Part shown: positions 20,727 through 29,590 of the stretch, piece after piece
Numbering within the stretch: position 1 is the first letter of the stretch
Layout: each line of letters starts with the position of its first letter
From: Promethearchaeia archaeon
Lineage (GTDB): Archaea; Asgardarchaeota; Lokiarchaeia; Sigyniarchaeales; SOKP01
DNA: 54,017 bases
Reading direction: 5' to 3'
Assembly: GCA_029856045.1 (NCBI GenBank)
Contig: JAHQWG010000009.1
Location: 1 to 54,017 of the forward strand
The notes under the pieces: model-generated
The model's input: the letters and a program-made list of their open reading frames with translations, nothing else
Told to the model about the DNA's origin: nothing
Database searches by the model: none
Made by a program: the position numbers and the translations under genes

Positions 20727-20879
20727 TTAAGTTTACTAAACTATAATTATTTATATAACATATAAAAAAAGGATAAAAATTTGATATTGAATTAATATTG
20801 AAAAATTAATATAATTTAATTAAATTCATTTCTTTAGATTTAAATAGAAATAACATATAAATTATTTTTTCTAATCACA
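20727..20879. promoter_or_regulatory. Divergent promoter region of the phosphonate operon and the HAD gene
   Basis: This 153-base AT-rich gap lies between two divergent start codons. It contains TATA-like stretches in both directions: TTTATATAACATAT at 20750-20763 and AACATATAAATTAT at 20852-20865. The second lies only ~20-25 bases before the ATG at 20880, so the PEP mutase mRNA could be nearly leaderless; no Shine-Dalgarno sequence precedes that ATG. Confidence 0.4.
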
Positions 20880-22574
20880 ATGACCCTAACAAATAGAATT
20901 TCACCCGAAGATAGAAGAAAATCCTTAAAACAATTACTTAACAAGAAAAATTTAATAAGAATTATAGAAGCTCATAATGGGCTTAGTGCAATAATTGTGA
21001 ATAATATAAAAGAAAAAGTTGGAGATGAAATTCTTGAATTTGATGGAATTTGGGTTAGTAGTTTAACAGAAAGCGCAGCTAAAGGATACCCTGATGCAGA
21101 TATAATTGGAATTGAATCAAGATATGAAACTATTAGGCAAATATTAAATAGCTCAAATAAACCATTAATTGTAGATGGTGATACTGGAGGAGAGGCAACA
21201 AATTTTGAATATTTTGTAAGATCTTTAGAAGATATGGGAGTTTCAATGGTTATCATAGAGGATAAGAAATTTCCAAAAAGAAATAGTTTGGATCCTGGTG
21301 CTAAACAAACACAAGAAGATCCCGATATATTTGCATTGAAAATTAAAAGAGGGAAAAATATTCAAATAACCTCTGATTTTATGATTGTTGCAAGGATTGA
21401 AAGCTTAATATCGGGTTCGGGACTAAGAGACGCATTGTATAGAGCTAAGAAATATCTACAAGTTGGAGCAGATGGGATAATGATACATTCCAAGGACACT
21501 AATCCTAAAGAAATATTTGATTTCGCAATAGAGTATAATAAATTATCTAGGGAGTTAGGAATCAATAAACCATTAGTTTGTGTTCCAACAACCTATAATA
21601 CTGTAACAGAACATGAATTGAAAGATAAAGGTTTTAATATTGTTATATATGCAAATCATATATTGCGTTCAGCTCATAAAGCAATGAAAAAAGCCGCATC
21701 AATTATTCTAAAGAATCAAAGGGGCTTAGAAGTTGAATCTGTATGTAGTCCAGTTAATAATATTTTTAAAGATGTTGGATTCTTAGAAGTAAAAGAAAAA
21801 GATTTGAAATATGATATCGGTAAGATAAGAGTTATTATTCCTGCGGCAGGTAAAGATCCCAATTTTAACATTCCAAAATCGATGATAAATATAAAAGGAA
21901 AATCAATCCTTCAAAGACAAATAAACATTTTAAACCGTTGTGGAATTAAAGATATCAATGTAATTAGAGGTTATAAAAAAGATCTTATCAATGTAGAAGG
22001 AGTTCAATATATTGATAATAATAAATATTTAACAACCTTCATATTACATTCATTATTTAAAGCCGAAGATAATATGAAAAACGGCTTTATCTATATAAAC
22101 TCTGATATAATATTTAATGACCAAATTATAAACAATTTATTGAATTCTAAAGGAGATATTGTTTTAGTAGTAGATAATTCCTATTTTTATCATAAACATG
22201 AAGTTGATAAGAAACTCGATTTAGTTTTGACTAAAAATAAACCCAACAAAGAGTTCAGGAGATTATACCAAAAAGAAAATGAAATAATAAGAATTGGTAA
22301 AACATTAGATAAAAATATGGCAGATTATGAATTTGTGGGGCTTACTTATTTTTCTGAATACAGTGTGGATATTATTAGAAAAATATATCATGATTGTAAA
22401 ATAAATCATGAAGGTCCATTTCATGAAGCTGTTTCATTTGAAATGGCATCATTTACTGATTTTATTCAAGAAGTAATTGACAGAGACTTTAAAGTGAACG
22501 TATTAGAGGTATATAAGGGATGGATTGAAATTCACAATAAAAAGGATATTGAGATTGCTGAGAGGATAATATGA
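20880..22574 (+). CDS. pepM: Phosphoenolpyruvate mutase fused to a nucleotidyltransferase domain
   Basis: This 564-residue fusion catalyses the entry step of phosphonate synthesis, the isomerisation of phosphoenolpyruvate to phosphonopyruvate, which forms the C-P bond. Residues ~15-300 are the PEP mutase barrel: DGDTGG (metal site, ~99-104) and EDKKFPKRNS (127-136), which fits the diagnostic EDKxxxKxNS that separates true mutases from isocitrate-lyase-type relatives. Residues ~315-564 form an NTP-transferase fold: IRVIIPAAGKDPNFNIPKSM, then NVIRGY, YLTTFILHSLFKAED and FIYINSDIIF. Fusions of this kind make CMP-phosphonates (PntC-like domain). Here the nucleotide loop lacks the usual G-x-R, so the domain may be inactive or altered. 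The stop overlaps the next start as ATGA, the first gene of a coupled operon. Confidence 0.92.
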   Translation: MTLTNRISPEDRRKSLKQLLNKKNLIRIIEAHNGLSAIIVNNIKEKVGDEILEFDGIWVSSLTESAAKGYPDADIIGIESRYETIRQILNSSNKPLIVDGDTGGEATNFEYFVRSLEDMGVSMVIIEDKKFPKRNSLDPGAKQTQEDPDIFALKIKRGKNIQITSDFMIVARIESLISGSGLRDALYRAKKYLQVGADGIMIHSKDTNPKEIFDFAIEYNKLSRELGINKPLVCVPTTYNTVTEHELKDKGFNIVIYANHILRSAHKAMKKAASIILKNQRGLEVESVCSPVNNIFKDVGFLEVKEKDLKYDIGKIRVIIPAAGKDPNFNIPKSMINIKGKSILQRQINILNRCGIKDINVIRGYKKDLINVEGVQYIDNNKYLTTFILHSLFKAEDNMKNGFIYINSDIIFNDQIINNLLNSKGDIVLVVDNSYFYHKHEVDKKLDLVLTKNKPNKEFRRLYQKENEIIRIGKTLDKNMADYEFVGLTYFSEYSVDIIRKIYHDCKINHEGPFHEAVSFEMASFTDFIQEVIDRDFKVNVLEVYKGWIEIHNKKDIEIAERII

Positions 22575-23707
22575 TTACTTCTTTTGAATTATATAATATA
22601 TTTAAAAAATACGAATTGACCTTCTTTACGGGGATTCCAGATTCTACATTTGCAGATTGGATGTTTTTTTTAGCAGACCATGATGAAAAATTATTAATAA
22701 ATATTATTGCTTGTAATGAATGTGAATCTATTGCAATATGTGTAGGATATTATTTAGCAAGTGGTAAAATTGGGGTTGCTTATATGCAAAATGCTGGTTT
22801 TGGAAAAACAATAAATCCATTGACATCGCTTTGTAACCCAGAACTCTATTCAATTCCTGTTTTATTAATGATTGGATGGAGAGGAGAGCCTGGAAAGTTA
22901 GATGAACCCCAACATAAAAAGATGGGAAGAATTATGAATTTATTATTAAAAGATTTAGAAATTCCTTATGTAATTTTGCCTTCTGATATTGGAGGTATTG
23001 AGAGGGAAATAAAAAAAGCAAAAAATTACTTGGAAACAAATAAAGCTCCTTATGCACTAATAATTAAAAAAGGGATTATTAAAAATAAAAAATCGAAGGA
23101 AAATTTATTATTAAATTATGAAATGACAAGGGAAATGGCTTTAAAATTAATTATTGATAAATTCGATCAAAATGAAATAATTATTAGTACAACAGGTAAA
23201 ACTTCAAGAGAACTTTATGAATATAGAGAAGGCTATAATAAAATTCACAAAAAGGATTTTTATATGGTTGGATCTATGGGTTGTGCAGCATCGATAGGAC
23301 TTGGTATTGCACTTCAAAAAAAAGGTAGAAGAGTGATTGTTATAGATGGTGATGGGGCTCTTATTATGCAGATGGGAGCGTTAGCAACAATTGGAAATAA
23401 ATCTCCCCCTAATTTGATTCATATTGTTTTTGATAATGAAGCACATGATTCAACAGGAGGACAACCAACAGTTTCCCCATCCTTAAATTTAAAAGAAATT
23501 GCTTTAAATTGTAATTATAAATATTCTACATTAATAAAATCAAAAAGTCAATTAATATTTGAATTGGATAAGGTTAAAAAATTAGATGGTCCTTCAATGT
23601 TAGTTATTAAAGTAAAAAAAGGGTCTCGAAAAGATTTGGGAAGACCAAAAACCTCTTTTATCAAACTTAAAAATAATTTTATCAGATATTTAGAAGATAA
23701 TGATTGA
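22571..23707 (+). CDS. ppd: Phosphonopyruvate decarboxylase
   Basis: This 378-residue thiamine-diphosphate enzyme decarboxylates phosphonopyruvate to phosphonoacetaldehyde, the irreversible step that pulls the unfavourable PEP mutase reaction forward. The N-terminal pyrimidine-binding half has FFTGIPDSTFADW, an ACNECESIAICVGY stretch with the conserved Glu that activates the cofactor, and YMQNAGFGKTINPL. The C-terminal half has the diphosphate motif GDGALIMQMGALATIG followed by LIHIVFDNEAHDSTGGQPT; the STGGQ ending is typical of phosphonopyruvate and sulfopyruvate decarboxylases. Phosphonopyruvate is preferred because of the coupled PEP mutase upstream (4-base overlap) and the reductase downstream (8-base overlap). 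Length matches the family. Confidence 0.93.
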   Translation: MITSFELYNIFKKYELTFFTGIPDSTFADWMFFLADHDEKLLINIIACNECESIAICVGYYLASGKIGVAYMQNAGFGKTINPLTSLCNPELYSIPVLLMIGWRGEPGKLDEPQHKKMGRIMNLLLKDLEIPYVILPSDIGGIEREIKKAKNYLETNKAPYALIIKKGIIKNKKSKENLLLNYEMTREMALKLIIDKFDQNEIIISTTGKTSRELYEYREGYNKIHKKDFYMVGSMGCAASIGLGIALQKKGRRVIVIDGDGALIMQMGALATIGNKSPPNLIHIVFDNEAHDSTGGQPTVSPSLNLKEIALNCNYKYSTLIKSKSQLIFELDKVKKLDGPSMLVIKVKKGSRKDLGRPKTSFIKLKNNFIRYLEDND

Positions 23708-24836
23708 ATATATTGGAAAAAATTCTATTAAACATTTGCAATCAATAATAAAAAAATATTCTTTTAAAAATATATTTCTTGTAACGGGTAAAAAATCGTT
23801 TGAAATATCTAAAGCAAAAAAAATAGTAATGAATGTTCTGAAAGATTGCAATATCATGCGGTTTTTTAATTTTTCACCCAATCCCAAGATTGAAGATATA
23901 AAAAAAGGATTAGAACTTTTTAAAAAGGATAGATATAATGTAATTATAGCGGTTGGTGGAGGTTCTGTAATAGATATTGCTAAAAGTATTGCAATTTTTT
24001 CTACAAATAATGGAATGATTGAAAAATATATTAAAAAAGAAATAAATGTTGAAAAAAATGGACCTCCACTAATTTGCATCCCAACTACTGCTGGTTCTGG
24101 AAGTCAAGCAACTCATTTCGCAGTTATATATATAAACAAAAAAAAATATTCTTTAGGACATCCCACCTTTATGCTTCCAGATTATAGTATTGTTGATCCA
24201 CAATTTACTTATAGCTTACCTCCAAAAATTACTGCCTCAACAGGTATGGATGCTTTATCTCAAGCGATTGAATCATATTGGAATATAAATTCTACCAAAG
24301 AATCAAAAAAATATGCAGAAAAAGCAATAAAATTAGTTGTGAATAATCTAGTTAAGGCGGTTAATAATCTAAATAAAGAATCAAGACGAAATATGTCTAT
24401 AGCAGCACATTATGCAGGTAAGGCAATAAATATTACTAAAACTACGGCTTGTCATGCAATATCATATCCTATTACTTCATATTTTAATGTTCCACATGGT
24501 CATGCAGTTGCATTAACTCTTCCAAATATGTTTATCTATAATTCAGAAGTAAATGAAATTGACATTCTAGACCCTCGAGGATTAGATTATGTCAAAAAAA
24601 CAATGAAAAAATTAGAAACAATTATTGGAGTATCTACATCTTTCGAAGCTAAACTAAAAATTGAACAGATAATGCTAAAAATTGGATTGGAAATTAAGTT
24701 AAATAAATTGGGAATCAAAACACAAGAAGATATAGAATTAATTATAAAAAATGGATTCAATCCTGAACGTGTAAAAAATAACCCAAGAAAACTAACAGAA
24801 GAGAATTTAAGAAATATTTTAGAAGAAATTAAATGA
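23700..24836 (+). CDS. phpC: Iron-containing alcohol dehydrogenase, probable phosphonoacetaldehyde reductase
   Basis: A 378-residue group III metal-dependent alcohol dehydrogenase. The NAD(P)-binding region has IAVGGGSVIDIAKSI, followed by CIPTTAGSGSQATHFAVIY, a stretch resembling that of the phosphonoacetaldehyde reductases PhpC and FrbD. Metal ligands are supplied by GMDALSQAIES (Asp), ACHAISYPIT (His) and VPHGHAVALTLP (His). In this operon it should reduce phosphonoacetaldehyde to 2-hydroxyethylphosphonate. The usual alternative, a transaminase giving 2-aminoethylphosphonate, is absent from the window. It starts inside the last codons of the decarboxylase (8-base overlap) and its own stop overlaps the next ATG. 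The symbol is assigned by function and context; the specific substrate is inferred. Confidence 0.82.
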   Translation: MIEYIGKNSIKHLQSIIKKYSFKNIFLVTGKKSFEISKAKKIVMNVLKDCNIMRFFNFSPNPKIEDIKKGLELFKKDRYNVIIAVGGGSVIDIAKSIAIFSTNNGMIEKYIKKEINVEKNGPPLICIPTTAGSGSQATHFAVIYINKKKYSLGHPTFMLPDYSIVDPQFTYSLPPKITASTGMDALSQAIESYWNINSTKESKKYAEKAIKLVVNNLVKAVNNLNKESRRNMSIAAHYAGKAINITKTTACHAISYPITSYFNVPHGHAVALTLPNMFIYNSEVNEIDILDPRGLDYVKKTMKKLETIIGVSTSFEAKLKIEQIMLKIGLEIKLNKLGIKTQEDIELIIKNGFNPERVKNNPRKLTEENLRNILEEIK

Positions 24837-25564
24837 AGGTAATAATTTTAAACGCAGGCATTGGAAAACGATTACAACCAATAACAAACAAGATACCAAA
24901 ATGTCTCATTGAAATATCTAAAAATTTAACAATTCTTGATTATCAACTTAAGAACGTTATAGAGTGTAAATTAAATGATCTAATTATTCTCACAGGAGCA
25001 TTTGAAGATAAAATAAAAGCACATATTAAAAAAAATTACAATTCGTTAAAAGTTAAATATGTTTATAATCCAAAATACGAAAAAACAAATTACATCTATT
25101 CGATGTATCTTACTAAAGAGATAATTGACGAAGATGTAATATTATTTCACGGAGATTTGATATTTTCAAATTTATTATTAAAAAAAATTATAAAATCAAA
25201 ATTATCGAATTGTGTTTTAATAAATAAAAAACTACATCCTAAAAAAGATTTTAAGGCATATATTGTTTCTGATAGAGTTTTAAAAATTGGTGTTAATATT
25301 TTCGGTCCTAATTCGGCCTTTTTAGCGCCATTATATAAATTAACAAAAAATTTTTTTAAAAAATGGTTAAATCAAATTGAAAAATTTGTACTGGCTAATA
25401 GATTAAATGTTTATGCTGAAGATGCTTTAAATAAAATTTTAGAACAAGTGATTTTGAACCCATTATATTTTAATGAAAGAAATTGTATGGAAATTGATGA
25501 TTTTGAAGATTTAAATTTAATTCGAAATCTTATGAAAAATGTAGATTTCCGTAATAATCACTAA
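24833..25564 (+). CDS. LicC/PntC-like sugar- or phosphonate nucleotidyltransferase
   Basis: A 243-residue single-domain nucleotidyltransferase. It has an intact nucleotide loop, ILNAGIGKRLQPITNKIPKC (G-x-G-x-R-L and the P-K lysine), and the stretch NPKYEKTNYIYSMYLTKE, which resembles the 'N-P-x-[YF]-x-x-T-N-N-I-Y-S-L' signature of choline-phosphate cytidylyltransferase LicC and phosphonate cytidylyltransferase PntC. LFHGDLIF supplies the metal-binding Asp and MEIDDFEDL the C-terminal acidic motif. It is the last gene of the phosphonate operon, overlapping the reductase by ATGA. It most likely makes CMP-2-hydroxyethylphosphonate, perhaps in place of the degenerate domain fused to PEP mutase. 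CTP specificity is inferred from family resemblance. Confidence 0.78.
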   Translation: MKVIILNAGIGKRLQPITNKIPKCLIEISKNLTILDYQLKNVIECKLNDLIILTGAFEDKIKAHIKKNYNSLKVKYVYNPKYEKTNYIYSMYLTKEIIDEDVILFHGDLIFSNLLLKKIIKSKLSNCVLINKKLHPKKDFKAYIVSDRVLKIGVNIFGPNSAFLAPLYKLTKNFFKKWLNQIEKFVLANRLNVYAEDALNKILEQVILNPLYFNERNCMEIDDFEDLNLIRNLMKNVDFRNNH

Positions 25565-25590
25565 ATTCAATATCTATTTAATTTTATTAA

Positions 25591-26796
25591 TTATTTTATT
25601 CTTAGATTCAATAACTTGGCAACACGCTCACATGATTTGTCATCGATATATTTATTAAAAAGATCTCTAATTTTATTTCTTTTAGATTCATATTTGTGTG
25701 CCAATTCGGATATATTTTTTAAATAGTAAATCAATTCTCGACCATTTTTAGCAATTGGACCGGGGGCAATTTTCTCATAGTCTTTATAATACATCCCCCG
25801 TTGCTTCTGATATAATTCTAAATCATAGGCAAAAACAATAATAGGTTTTTGAAGAATTGAAAAATCGTGCATAATAGAAGAATAATCAGAGATTAATATA
25901 TCTGTTATTAACAATAATTCTTGTGTGTCAGAATATTTATCTGGTATAATCAATCCTCTTAAATCTTTTAAGTCAAAAGCTTCAATAAAAATATGAGCTT
26001 TATAAATTAAGATTGAATTAGATTCTTCCAAAAAGTTTTCTAATTCTAGTAATTCTTCTTTTGAAAAAGGCATTTTACCAACAAAGTCTTCTCGGAAAGT
26101 TGGAGCATACGTTATGATGTTTTTAATCCCTTCTGGAACTCTAAATTTTTGTTTTAATTTTTTTATTTCTTCTTTCTTTTTATTAAGAAGAAAATCATTT
26201 TGAGGTAAGCCAGTTATTTTGATTTTTTTTTGAGGAATTTTAAATGCCGATTTGAAATTTTTTTTGATTTCTTCCGATGGAGACAATAAATAGGTCAAAT
26301 CTTTTACGAGTTTTTTTAATACTATATAATTATATCGATTACCAAGGAATTTAAGAGCATCAAAACCAATTTTCTTCATTGGATTTCCATGCCAAGTAAG
26401 TATTATTTGAGTTTGAGGAGAAAATTCTATAGGTAATATATCACCCTCACCATGAGTAATAAAAATACAGCGAGCAGAACGTAATTTAAAAAATGCTTTG
26501 AGTGAAAATGCATAGAGAGAATTAAAACCCTGTTCTTGAAGATGTTTTACAATTTCTTTAGATCTTGAGATCCAGAGACATTTATAATTAGAATATTTAT
26601 TAAAATAGAGAAAAAGATATTTTGTATTACCCAAAAATGCTTTACCAAGATTCCCACCAAAAATCAATAAATCTTTGTCAATTTTAGGTCTTATAAAGAT
26701 TGATATGATTTTTAATATTTTTAAAAATGAAATCTTTACTCTAGATAAATTAATATTAGTAATATTAAAAATATCAATTAGCCTTTTTGAAATCAT
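25591..26796 (-). CDS. CDP-glycerol glycerophosphotransferase family protein (TagF/TagB-like)
   Basis: This 401-residue member of the family that transfers glycerol- or ribitol-phosphate from CDP-activated donors onto cell-surface acceptors. Hallmarks in order: FITHGEGD, LTWHGNPMKKIG (catalytic-loop His, ~residue 131), ITGLPQNDFL (equivalent to tGyPRnD), TYAPTFREDF, IYKAHIF (second conserved His), LISDYSSIMHDF and FAYDLELYQKQRGMYYKDYE, ending in PGPI. Those are essentially all the family's conserved blocks. It converges on the phosphonate operon with a 26-base gap and precedes the rhamnose genes. The donor here may be the CMP-phosphonate made next door instead of CDP-glycerol, which would put a phosphonate on a glycan or lipid. 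No transmembrane helix is obvious; the N-terminus is basic and hydrophobic. Confidence 0.87.
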   Translation of the reverse strand: MISKRLIDIFNITNINLSRVKISFLKILKIISIFIRPKIDKDLLIFGGNLGKAFLGNTKYLFLYFNKYSNYKCLWISRSKEIVKHLQEQGFNSLYAFSLKAFFKLRSARCIFITHGEGDILPIEFSPQTQIILTWHGNPMKKIGFDALKFLGNRYNYIVLKKLVKDLTYLLSPSEEIKKNFKSAFKIPQKKIKITGLPQNDFLLNKKKEEIKKLKQKFRVPEGIKNIITYAPTFREDFVGKMPFSKEELLELENFLEESNSILIYKAHIFIEAFDLKDLRGLIIPDKYSDTQELLLITDILISDYSSIMHDFSILQKPIIVFAYDLELYQKQRGMYYKDYEKIAPGPIAKNGRELIYYLKNISELAHKYESKRNKIRDLFNKYIDDKSCERVAKLLNLRIK

Positions 26797-26954: not shown

Positions 26955-28610
26955 TTACGGTATCATATTTGGAGGTGGGGTTTTTAGACAAAATCCACAT
27001 TTACCAAATGAAGAAATTGTTTGATCCCAACAATGTTTATGATATAATCTTTCACAGTACGGACATTCCGTTCGACATTGATTACCATCAGCAGACGCAA
27101 TAGGTAATTTACATGCACCGTCTGGACATTGAATCTGATGACAAATTACACACGAAATAACCGAAACTTCAAAAATCTTTTTAGATATTGCATTAAATAA
27201 ATCAATCAGATATGTAAAAGGCGTCCAGTCATTAAAAAATTGCTGAATAGATGCTTCAAGTTTCTTTTTTATTGGCTCGTGGGTCTCATCTTCAAATTCA
27301 TTTAATACTTTAAGTTCGGGAGGATTCATAGGATAATTTGTGGGTAAAATTGCTTGAAATTCAAAAATTACATTCTCGGTTTTCATTTTACCTTTCATTT
27401 TAAGATTAATTGTATTTGTGAAAGCGTCAAATTGAAGCTCATCAATGCCACCTTTTAACAAATTAATCTCAAAATTTACTCTCGAATTTTTATCGACTAA
27501 CCAAGATATTTCTCGTAAAATGTCCACTACTTCTGATTGTTTAGATATCCAACTCTTGATTGAGTCTAACTGAGAAGGAGAAATTTGTATTAAACTATTT
27601 AATTCTGGGCTATATTGCAAAACGGGTGGGTTTGGATATTTGCTAATATCTATCTCTAAATCATATTCTTTAAATCCATAGGTAAGTAAATGAACGTTCA
27701 ACTTTGAAATATTTCCCTCTATTGGCTCAGCTTGATATTCTCCTGATATTTTTTTGAATTGCATTTCAATATCTTTTACGAAAAATAATTTACTTTCGAT
27801 TTCTCGTATTAACTCTACAATATGTGGAGGTGATTTTGAGTTCCATTTTTTAAGCAAATCAAGTTCTTTCTTTGGTTCTACTAAAAGATTTATTATTTCT
27901 TCTGGAAATGTAATGATGGGTTTTTCAGGGTAGTTATTGAAATTAATCTCGATGATAAATGTTTTTTCTAAGGTAATTGTGAGATATACGTTGATATCTG
28001 CTTTATTTTTTTCTATTTGATCAATTGGGTATTCCATTTGGATTAATCCTAATTCTGTAGTGACTTTTAAAGGCATAGTTAATGATTCTTCAGTAAAAGA
28101 TTGCATTTCTGGTTTTGGGGGTTGAAGAGATTCTTCCTTCGTTTTTTCTTCTTCATAATAGTCAGGAGTAATGAACGAGTCTTTTTGAAGAGATATTTCT
28201 TCTGCAGGATATTTGGAATAATCTGGAGTAATAAAATCTTCTGATTTCTGGGATTCTTCAACAAGAGGTTGAATATGACCTAAATCTTCTTCAATTTTTG
28301 CCGTTCCACTTAAAGCACTTTGAATTTTTCCTTTTAATTCTTTTATTATATCAACAACTCTTGAATCAGGAGTCCAATTTTTCTCTTTATCAAGATTTAT
28401 ATCTCCTAATAAATCTTTTATCTCTTGATGAGGTATTATTTGAGGAGGGGCATGAGGAAAAGTTTCATCAAATTTCACTTCTATAATGAATTTTTGTTTT
28501 GAGCTTTCATATACAGCTCCATATAAATGAGCAATATTTCCAGATACCATCCAAAAAGAAAATTGTGATGCGATAATTTGAGCTTCTTTTAAAATTCTCT
28601 GTTTTTCCAT
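26955..28610 (-). CDS. Protein with four UBC/RWD-like domains and a C-terminal RING-like finger
   Basis: A 551-residue cytosolic protein. Four segments repeat the core of the UBC/RWD fold, a strand pair followed by a 'Y/F-P-x-x-P-P' turn and a helix. They have FDETFPHAPPQI (~residue 50), INFNNYPEKPIITF, ISKYPNPPVLQYSPEL and LPTNYPMNPPELKVL, and several are followed by 'W-x(n)-[VI]-[VI]-[DE]-[IL]-[IL]-[RK]-E-[IL]'. No active-site Cys of ubiquitin-conjugating enzymes is visible at the expected place. The last 65 residues hold a RING-like zinc finger: CVIC, then CPYC, YHKHC and CGFC (residues 487-541). In eukaryotes RWD-RING combinations occur in E3 ligases (RNF14 and RNF25 types). It may be an E3 or scaffold of an Asgard ubiquitin-like pathway. 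It lies between surface-glycan genes but is probably transcribed separately. Confidence 0.72.
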   Translation of the reverse strand: MEKQRILKEAQIIASQFSFWMVSGNIAHLYGAVYESSKQKFIIEVKFDETFPHAPPQIIPHQEIKDLLGDINLDKEKNWTPDSRVVDIIKELKGKIQSALSGTAKIEEDLGHIQPLVEESQKSEDFITPDYSKYPAEEISLQKDSFITPDYYEEEKTKEESLQPPKPEMQSFTEESLTMPLKVTTELGLIQMEYPIDQIEKNKADINVYLTITLEKTFIIEINFNNYPEKPIITFPEEIINLLVEPKKELDLLKKWNSKSPPHIVELIREIESKLFFVKDIEMQFKKISGEYQAEPIEGNISKLNVHLLTYGFKEYDLEIDISKYPNPPVLQYSPELNSLIQISPSQLDSIKSWISKQSEVVDILREISWLVDKNSRVNFEINLLKGGIDELQFDAFTNTINLKMKGKMKTENVIFEFQAILPTNYPMNPPELKVLNEFEDETHEPIKKKLEASIQQFFNDWTPFTYLIDLFNAISKKIFEVSVISCVICHQIQCPDGACKLPIASADGNQCRTECPYCERLYHKHCWDQTISSFGKCGFCLKTPPPNMIP

Positions 28611-28690: not shown

Positions 28691-29590
28691 CTATAAATTT
28701 TTATGCTCTTTCATAAAATTTAGACCTTCATCTAAATTTAAGATTTTCAATTTATTTCCTAATATTTTTTTGAGCTTAGATATGTTTAATGAACCATTTT
28801 TCGGTCTAATGGCTTTTTGTTTAAAAAAATCAATTGGGTGGATTAATTCTTTTGAAAAATTAAAAATTTCAGCACATTTTACTGCAATTTCATATCGACT
28901 TAGTGCACAATCTCCAGCAGTATGAATAATCCCTGATTTATTATAATCAATTAAATGGAGTAAAATTTCCGCCAAGTTATTTGCTAAGGTTGGTGAATTT
29001 ATTTGTTCAGTAACAATATCTATTTTATTTCCATTTTCTAGATTATTTAATATCCAAGTTATGAAATTTTGCCTATACAGATACCAACCATACAAAACAG
29101 CAGTTCTACAAATCAAATAATCAACTCCTGTTTTTATTATGTGTTTTTCACCTTCAAGTTTTGTATTTGCATAATGGCTTAATGGCTTCGGTTCATCTAT
29201 TTCTGAATAATCTCCTTTTTTCCCGTCAAATACAAAATCTGTTGAGAGGTACATCATTTTTGAATTAATTTTTTTACATCCCAAAGCCACATTTTCAGGA
29301 CCAAGAATATTTAAATTATAAGCAAGTTTCTTCTCATCTTCACATTTATCGACATCAGTGTAGGCTGCAGTTAAAATAACAGTGTCTGGGTTTATTTCTT
29401 TTATAGTCTCGATAGTTTTTTCTCTTTTTGTTATGTCAATTCTATTAAAGTTAATTTCTTTTGGGATTGTATTATTTTGAATGTCTGCAGCAATTGGAAT
29501 AAATTTATGGCTGTAGAGTTCATTTAGAATATAGTAAATTAATTTACTCCCTAAAAACCCATTTGCTCCTATTATTAGTACTTTCTGCAA
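28691..29590 (-). CDS. rmlD: dTDP-4-dehydrorhamnose reductase
   Basis: A 299-residue short-chain dehydrogenase-type enzyme carrying out the last step of dTDP-L-rhamnose synthesis with NAD(P)H. The N-terminal Rossmann motif is LIIGANGFLGSKLI (G-x-x-G-x-x-G). AAYTDVDKCEDE is a family signature. STDFVFDGKKGDYSE carries the catalytic Ser/Thr, and HYANTKLEGEKHI has the Y-x3-K pair. RTAVLYGW and GIIHTAGDCALSRYEIA complete the pattern. It is the last gene of an rmlA-C-B-D cluster on the minus strand, 31 bases after rmlB. The only standard start is TTG at 29590; GAA-ATC precede it after a stop codon and no ribosome-binding site is clear. Confidence 0.92.
   Translation of the reverse strand: MQKVLIIGANGFLGSKLIYYILNELYSHKFIPIAADIQNNTIPKEINFNRIDITKREKTIETIKEINPDTVILTAAYTDVDKCEDEKKLAYNLNILGPENVALGCKKINSKMMYLSTDFVFDGKKGDYSEIDEPKPLSHYANTKLEGEKHIIKTGVDYLICRTAVLYGWYLYRQNFITWILNNLENGNKIDIVTEQINSPTLANNLAEILLHLIDYNKSGIIHTAGDCALSRYEIAVKCAEIFNFSKELIHPIDFFKQKAIRPKNGSLNISKLKKILGNKLKILNLDEGLNFMKEHKNL

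Follow-up and report, generated by a model that had tools for sequence, protein, structure and literature searches.

Within the window, the 54,017-nucleotide stretch of archaeal DNA analyzed here (contig JAHQWG010000009.1), positions 20880 to 26796 hold a five-gene set that we somewhat favor reading as a phosphonyl-tailoring cassette, one that would make cytidylylated 2-hydroxyethylphosphonate (CMP-HEP) and employ a TagF-like enzyme as the surface transferase. In the proposed pathway, a phosphoenolpyruvate (PEP) mutase would convert PEP to phosphonopyruvate, the decarboxylase Ppd would convert this to phosphonoacetaldehyde, and an iron-containing alcohol dehydrogenase would reduce the aldehyde to 2-hydroxyethylphosphonate (HEP). 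The LicC/PntC-like product of the fourth gene would couple HEP with CTP to give CMP-HEP, from which the TagF-like transferase would transfer HEP to a hydroxyl group on either a surface glycan or a lipid-linked precursor with release of CMP, a step modeled on TagF-family action with CDP-glycerol. The nucleotidyltransferase (NTase) domain fused to the PEP mutase would have a binding or scaffolding role. Curated family models underpin the first two steps; HEP formation, CMP activation, and transfer we infer.

Four open reading frames (ORFs) on the + strand (20880-22574, 22571-23707, 23700-24836, and 24833-25564) overlap successively by 4, 8, and 4 bases, and a 401-aa TagF-like ORF on the - strand (25591-26796) faces gene 4 with 26 bases between the gene ends, the arrangement described in an earlier note made from the DNA letters (the original prediction). 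The Asgard-like host proposed there proved to be a Lokiarchaeon: the nearest public record to gene 1 is from 'Candidatus Lokiarchaeota archaeon isolate 6H3_1' (95% identity), and 13 more Lokiarchaeal loci match at 70-75%. The window genome assembly (3.34 Mb, rated 100% complete and 3.53% contaminated) contains one PEP mutase. It is labeled G000; G036, G094, G095, G097, G108, and similar labels denote the Asgard genomes compared, all of them metagenome assemblies, and L-numbers denote their loci. A search of Asgard genomes for conserved clustering, which the prediction had offered as a check, found that most of the Lokiarchaeal loci covering the whole cluster hold all four genes, and this recurrence excludes their chance assembly. 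The operon and TagF, recurring in relatives, present the clustering of pepM, ppd, and a nucleotidyltransferase gene with a surface transferase that is expected of the phosphonyl-tailoring (Pnt) pathway.

Residues 1-300 of the 564-aa gene 1 product (20880-21779, +) form the PEP mutase domain. It scores 343.1 bits with the PEP mutase model TIGR02320, above the equivalog cut-off of 319.55, and contains the EDKxxxxxNS motif as EDKKFPKRNS; the catalytic Asp, His, and Arg positions are kept in the Lokiarchaeal fusions. Gene 1 scores 150 bits as a phosphonopyruvate hydrolase and 105 as a methylisocitrate lyase, and on these scores together with the motif we reject the isocitrate-lyase or hydrolase identity that the prediction had named as its possible undoing. 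Gene 2 (22571-23707, +) encodes phosphonopyruvate decarboxylase (Ppd, aepY), scoring 431 bits with TIGR03297 against an equivalog cut-off of 312.5. With both enzymes over their curated cut-offs, it is very likely that the cassette forms a phosphonate. Phosphonate degradation by carbon-phosphorus (C-P) lyase was considered and rejected, PhnJ being absent from the 11 genomes searched. All of the gene families named in the prediction were found as claimed, except that gene 1 is more than a PEP mutase: it is a two-domain fusion with a degenerate NTase.

Gene 3 (23700-24836, +) is an iron-containing alcohol dehydrogenase by Pfam (PF00465/PF25137) and a probable phosphonoacetaldehyde reductase (PhpC-like), a function predicted from context, clade, and a shared motif. 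In Lokiarchaea the dehydrogenases linked to pepM group in a single clade (support 93/94), separate from five paralogs in the window genome (28-33% identical). The HAxSYxxT-like signature of gene 3 recurs in most of the dehydrogenases linked to pepM in bacteria and other Asgards and is missing from these five paralogs. At a metal-ligand position the nearest solved structures and the Firmicutes copies have His, and the Asgard, Pelagibacteraceae, and Fretibacterium copies have Gln. Because gene 3 belongs to this dedicated clade, HEP is the likely product rather than 2-aminoethylphosphonate (AEP), as had been predicted. AEP was rejected as a product of the window genome, in which the best aminotransferase match to PhnW reaches 131 bits and so stays below the cut-off of 400.8. 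In G108, an AEP aminotransferase occupies the dehydrogenase slot (TIGR03301, 437 bits against a cut-off of 360.8).

Gene 4 (24833-25564, +; NTP_transferase, PF00483) is a LicC/PntC-like protein, probably a CTP:HEP cytidylyltransferase. It fits the consensus GXG(T/S)RX4-8PK, with Lys replacing T/S in its GIGKR...PK loop (GIGKRLQPITNKIPK), and retains the metal-binding acidic residues as Asp108 and EIDDFED (EIDxxxD). Its sequence is 54-90% identical over 14 Lokiarchaeal copies, and the best PDB fold matches of its AlphaFold2 (AF2) model (pLDDT 87.8) are PntC (6pd2) and then LicC (1jyk). In Tde-PntC, Glu104 contacts the amine of AEP (PMC6697681). The aligned residue, His106 in gene 4, is His in Lokiarchaeal and other Asgard copies paired with a dehydrogenase and Glu in G108, a correlation that rests on this one AEP-type cluster; that gene 4 tracks the dehydrogenase/aminotransferase swap in this way is evidence, at the sequence level, for its action on the phosphonate. 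Since both motifs are kept, whereas the fused domain of gene 1 lacks GxGxR and EID, gene 4 is probably a working cytidylyltransferase, and CMP-HEP is reasonably likely to be its product. The cytidylyl activation step foreseen in the prediction thus gains support from the intact motifs and from the residue at position 106.

The C-terminal portion of gene 1 (21795-22574, +; about residues 305-564) is an NTase-like domain that is probably degenerate; its Pfam score is borderline (PF12804, 26.6 bits; cut-off 27), and it matches LicC (1jyk) weakly. In all of the Lokiarchaeal fusions examined, a deletion of five residues has cut the loop GxGxRLxPxTxxxPK to GxDxxFxxPK, removing GxGxR (IIPAAGKDPNFNIPK in gene 1), and wherever the C-terminus is complete the EID metal motif has become EIH, as in gene 1, or EIN, as in G108. 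Gene 1 therefore lacks the combination of GxGxR...PK loop and EID that marks an active enzyme of this type. The loop defines the pyrophosphate site in Tde-PntC, in which the Arg15 alanine mutant has <10% activity (Rice et al., 2019; PMC6697681). The AF2 model of the fusion (pLDDT 58) is unusable for this domain, and the predicted loss of activity is read from the sequence. The whole fusion is 69-95% identical among Lokiarchaeal copies, every one of which keeps the domain along with its PK Lys and first Asp. Probably the domain has lost or changed its catalytic activity and is retained for a binding or scaffolding role.

Within the sample, a C-terminal NTase was found only in the Lokiarchaeal clade; in bacterial relatives and most other Asgard PEP mutases the fused NTase is N-terminal (PF01467, or PF12804 plus PF01467 in a Eubacterium example). 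The Lokiarchaeal clade (17 rows) forms one fully supported group with a long stem in the PEP mutase tree, and PEP mutases from other Asgards cluster with the bacterial ones; Asgards therefore appear to hold two or more lineages of pepM. The separate NTase most similar to the fused domain (∼33% identical) has intact motifs and is encoded at L007:7681-8445, L009:7539-8462, and homologous positions, next to a GlpT/PgtP-like transporter gene upstream of pepM.

The candidate phosphonyl transferase (25591-26796, -) is a TagF/TarF-like protein that scores 271 bits with the Glyphos_transf family PF04464, aligns with staphylococcal TagF (3l7i) at 6e-38, and has no predicted membrane helix. Its His residues within WHGNPMK and IYKAH fall opposite His444 and His584 of TagF, which are mutated in 3l7j and 3l7m and which we take to be catalytic; the two His residues expected of PF04464 are both present. 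Its best NCBIfam score, 189 bits with TarF, is below the cut-off of 550. The window genome has no other PF04464 gene. LicD was rejected as the transferase, since the window genome lacks it and just 2 of the 228 Asgard genomes have it. PEP mutase exceeded its cut-off in 22 of these 228 genomes and strong PF04464 matches (>100 bits) occurred in 29, with both in 12. Within the window's family, TagF is present in 11/17 fusion carriers and 6/∼48 non-carriers (Fisher p about 1e-4, without phylogenetic correction and with the family size estimated from handle numbers). TagF converges on the cluster in G000 and G094, lies upstream on the same strand in G139, G141, and G149, flanks it on both sides in G108, and converges on the dehydrogenase gene in the distant G036. 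The Asgard TagF tree forces five changes between adjacent and non-adjacent labels, that is, pepM adjacency at several separate places.

A conventional CDP-glycerol donor for TagF is not evident, because no glycerol-3-phosphate cytidylyltransferase (TIGR01518) exceeded its cut-off in 11 carrier genomes (best in the window genome 32.7 of 165.4 bits; a control search gave matches over the cut-off in 2 genomes). The TagD-type supply enzyme that would place the protein in a TagF/TarF teichoic acid system is thus missing from the over-cut-off matches of the genome. CDP-ribitol supply by IspD/TarI was also considered, and the window genome gave weak below-cut-off matches only. The original choice of the TagF-like enzyme as the best transferase candidate is supported by pepM adjacency, co-occurrence, its status as the sole PF04464 gene, and the absence of LicD; the chance that it is the phosphonate transferase we put at about even. 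More tentatively, Asgard TagF-family enzymes may act as CMP-phosphonate:acceptor transferases, which no PF04464 protein is known to do, and jointly with this, at the same tentative level, the fused NTase may be a retained pseudo-enzyme of the Lokiarchaeal lineage. Because HEP, like glycerol phosphate, has a distal hydroxyl, TagF-family enzymes could also chain HEP into a teichoic-acid-like phosphonate polymer.

In two relatives of the same genus, G095 and G097, the upstream HAD-family gene is followed directly by an RWD-like gene and the rml genes, and the counterpart of window bases 20786 to 26731 (approximate boundaries, from empty-site alignments) is missing. A short remnant of tagF persists at the empty site, translating as MIIKRLIEIFNSTNIDLSKVKI-ISILIRP against the TagF start MISKRLIDIFNITNINLSRVKI(SFLKILKI)ISIFIRP; its local DNA score is 79, whereas 1000 shuffles reached at most 47 and 267 control segments at most 29. 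Because this scar remains, the sequences indicate that the cassette was present in the ancestor and was deleted as a whole in these relatives. The rmlABCD genes lie downstream in the window as originally described (rmlD starting at 28691, then rmlB, rmlC, and rmlA), but are not linked to the trait: G095 and G097 keep them in place without the cassette, and in the closest carrier, G094, they do not follow TagF; they were rejected as part of the cassette. The product of the gene adjoining the cassette in the window (26955-28610, -) gives ubiquitin-conjugating-enzyme/RWD-like matches and has a tail rich in cysteine; the gene is also kept at the empty site in both relatives.

Several observations weigh against TagF-mediated HEP tailoring. 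The joint loss is one deletion of neighboring genes and hence weak evidence for a functional link, and the co-occurrence statistic is subject to the limits given with it. Gene 3 reaches no phosphonate equivalog cut-off (192 of 423.7 bits with the PsrA model TIGR03405, and no match to a curated PhpC model), and gene 4 is just ∼20% identical to PntC and LicC, its fold match being generic in that all NTases of the fold score well. TagF is not universal to the pathway: the carriers G110 and G120 (95% complete) lack it, and another transferase must exist there. The donors known for TagF-family enzymes are CDP-glycerol and CDP-ribitol, not CMP-phosphonates. A rather unlikely alternative is that the CMP-HEP made by the operon serves another transferase, which modifies a surface glycan or lipid, while TagF builds a separate glycerol-phosphate-like or sugar-phosphate polymer, both being located in surface-glycan islands. 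In its favor, strong PF04464 matches occur in 17 Asgard genomes without PEP mutase, and TagF-less carriers keep glycosyltransferase, sulfatase-like, and transporter genes near pepM, several with a CDP-alcohol-phosphotransferase-like gene as well. It is harder to reconcile with the repeated appearance of pepM adjacency in separate parts of the TagF tree, with a window genome in which no glycerol-3-phosphate or ribitol cytidylyltransferase over cut-off would feed a conventional TagF, and with the lack of a second PF04464 gene there.

The division of labor between the two NTases could also differ from the tailoring pathway proposed above. The fused domain might be active through its unusual loop and make CMP-HEP, with gene 4 activating some other small phosphate destined for that same glycan. 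Its retention in every Lokiarchaeal fusion with the PK Lys and first Asp is in keeping with this, as is the recurrence of two NTases per cluster, both in other Asgards (LicC together with a fused cytidylyltransferase) and in bacteria that have triple fusions; the universal deletion of the GxGxR Arg, the change of the EID metal Asp to His or Asn, and the fact that it is gene 4 that tracks the HEP/AEP swap make it quite improbable, the AF2 model of the fusion being too poor to judge. Even less probable is that the end product is a free secreted phosphonate, with cytidylylation just a step along the way, as when fosfomycin or phosphinothricin is made. Fosfomycin synthesis does pass through CMP-HEP (Fom1; PMC6697681), but the cassette has no fosfomycin- or antibiotic-type tailoring genes, and its neighbors in relatives are glycan and transferase genes. 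We give scarcely any credence to an annotation artefact in which an isocitrate-lyase-family hydrolase sits beside unrelated genes: such superfamily relatives do exist in Asgards, at 106 to 145 bits, but gene 1 exceeds the PEP mutase cut-off with its motif intact and is coupled to a Ppd over its own cut-off.

Different transferases may fill the same slot in different Asgards, since in G025, one of the two LicD-bearing genomes, the LicD gene (L093:5063-5839) lies ∼2 kb upstream of a cytidylyltransferase-PEP mutase fusion. In the G110/G120 clade, pepM is accompanied by glycosyltransferase, sulfatase-like, and MFS (GlpT/PgtP-like) genes and by the gene for an uncharacterized 760-aa membrane protein. 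This protein (L009:14815-17097, with same-size ORFs in L006, L007, L011, L014, and L015) has ∼12 predicted membrane spans and adjoins the pepM cluster; the L009 copy has no Pfam, NCBIfam, or PDB match. CDP-alcohol-phosphotransferase-like proteins encoded near pepM (L007:3916-4722, L009:3623-4432, and L014:3885-4760) have the motif D..DG..AR.{8}G...D...D with the last Asp changed to His (DEVDGEVARYKKKTSLRGIYYDEIGH), and are a possible alternative transferase; the L009 copy belongs to no Pfam family. Around its AEP-type pepM cluster, G108 encodes an 815-aa tandem double-TagF protein (L107:1684-4131) and has two further TagF genes, along with radical SAM/SPASM and polysaccharide deacetylase genes.

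Lokiarchaea fall within the archaeal group closest to eukaryotes. If the proposed pathway is correct, C-P chemistry would occur on the surface of Asgard archaea, relatives of eukaryotes with poorly known envelopes, and these organisms could be an added source of environmental HEP-type phosphonates. The enzyme that moves an activated phosphonate onto a surface polymer is an open question in phosphonate tailoring, for which the cassette supplies a defined pair of candidate enzyme and donor. Among archaea, Thaumarchaeota are already known to synthesize phosphonates (PMC9381506), and fusion of a PEP mutase to a cytidylyltransferase has been noted on a Borg element (PMC12660748). A literature search combining phosphonate with Asgard or Lokiarchaeota found no earlier report of synthesis, many subscription papers being outside its reach.

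The closest known counterpart is the bacterial Pnt pathway (Rice et al., 2019; PMC6697681), which shares PEP mutase, Ppd, a LicC/PntC-type cytidylyltransferase, and a proposed step that moves the phosphonate from CMP onto a surface polymer. The Lokiarchaeal set differs in its archaeal host, in having a reductase in place of the AEP transaminase (for HEP rather than AEP) and a TagF-like in place of a LicD-like transferase, and in the degenerate C-terminal NTase on its PEP mutase. Other PEP mutase-NTase fusions (PF12804 or PF01467, including Fom1) likewise join the two covalently, but the NTase is N-terminal in the bacterial and other Asgard fusions examined, whereas in the Lokiarchaeal clade it is C-terminal with the GxGxR loop deleted. 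The Thaumarchaeal HEP/methylphosphonate producer Nitrosopumilus maritimus also combines archaeal pepM-based synthesis with glycan-type neighbor genes (PMC9381506); the Lokiarchaeal cassette has no methylphosphonate synthase-like gene and instead has the NTase fusion, the LicC-like gene, and TagF. The Borg element, likened here by its description, has an archaea-associated fusion in a glycoconjugate region (PMC12660748), although Borg elements belong to methane-oxidizing archaea. With TagF/TarF teichoic acid glycerophosphotransferases the Lokiarchaeal protein shares PF04464 and both catalytic His positions; it differs in that its genome has no CDP-glycerol synthesis enzyme over cut-off and in adjoining a phosphonate operon. 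Taken together, the pathway logic is that of bacterial phosphonyl tailoring, and the Lokiarchaeal novelties are the degenerate C-terminal NTase fusion, the reductase/aminotransferase exchange, and TagF in the transferase slot.

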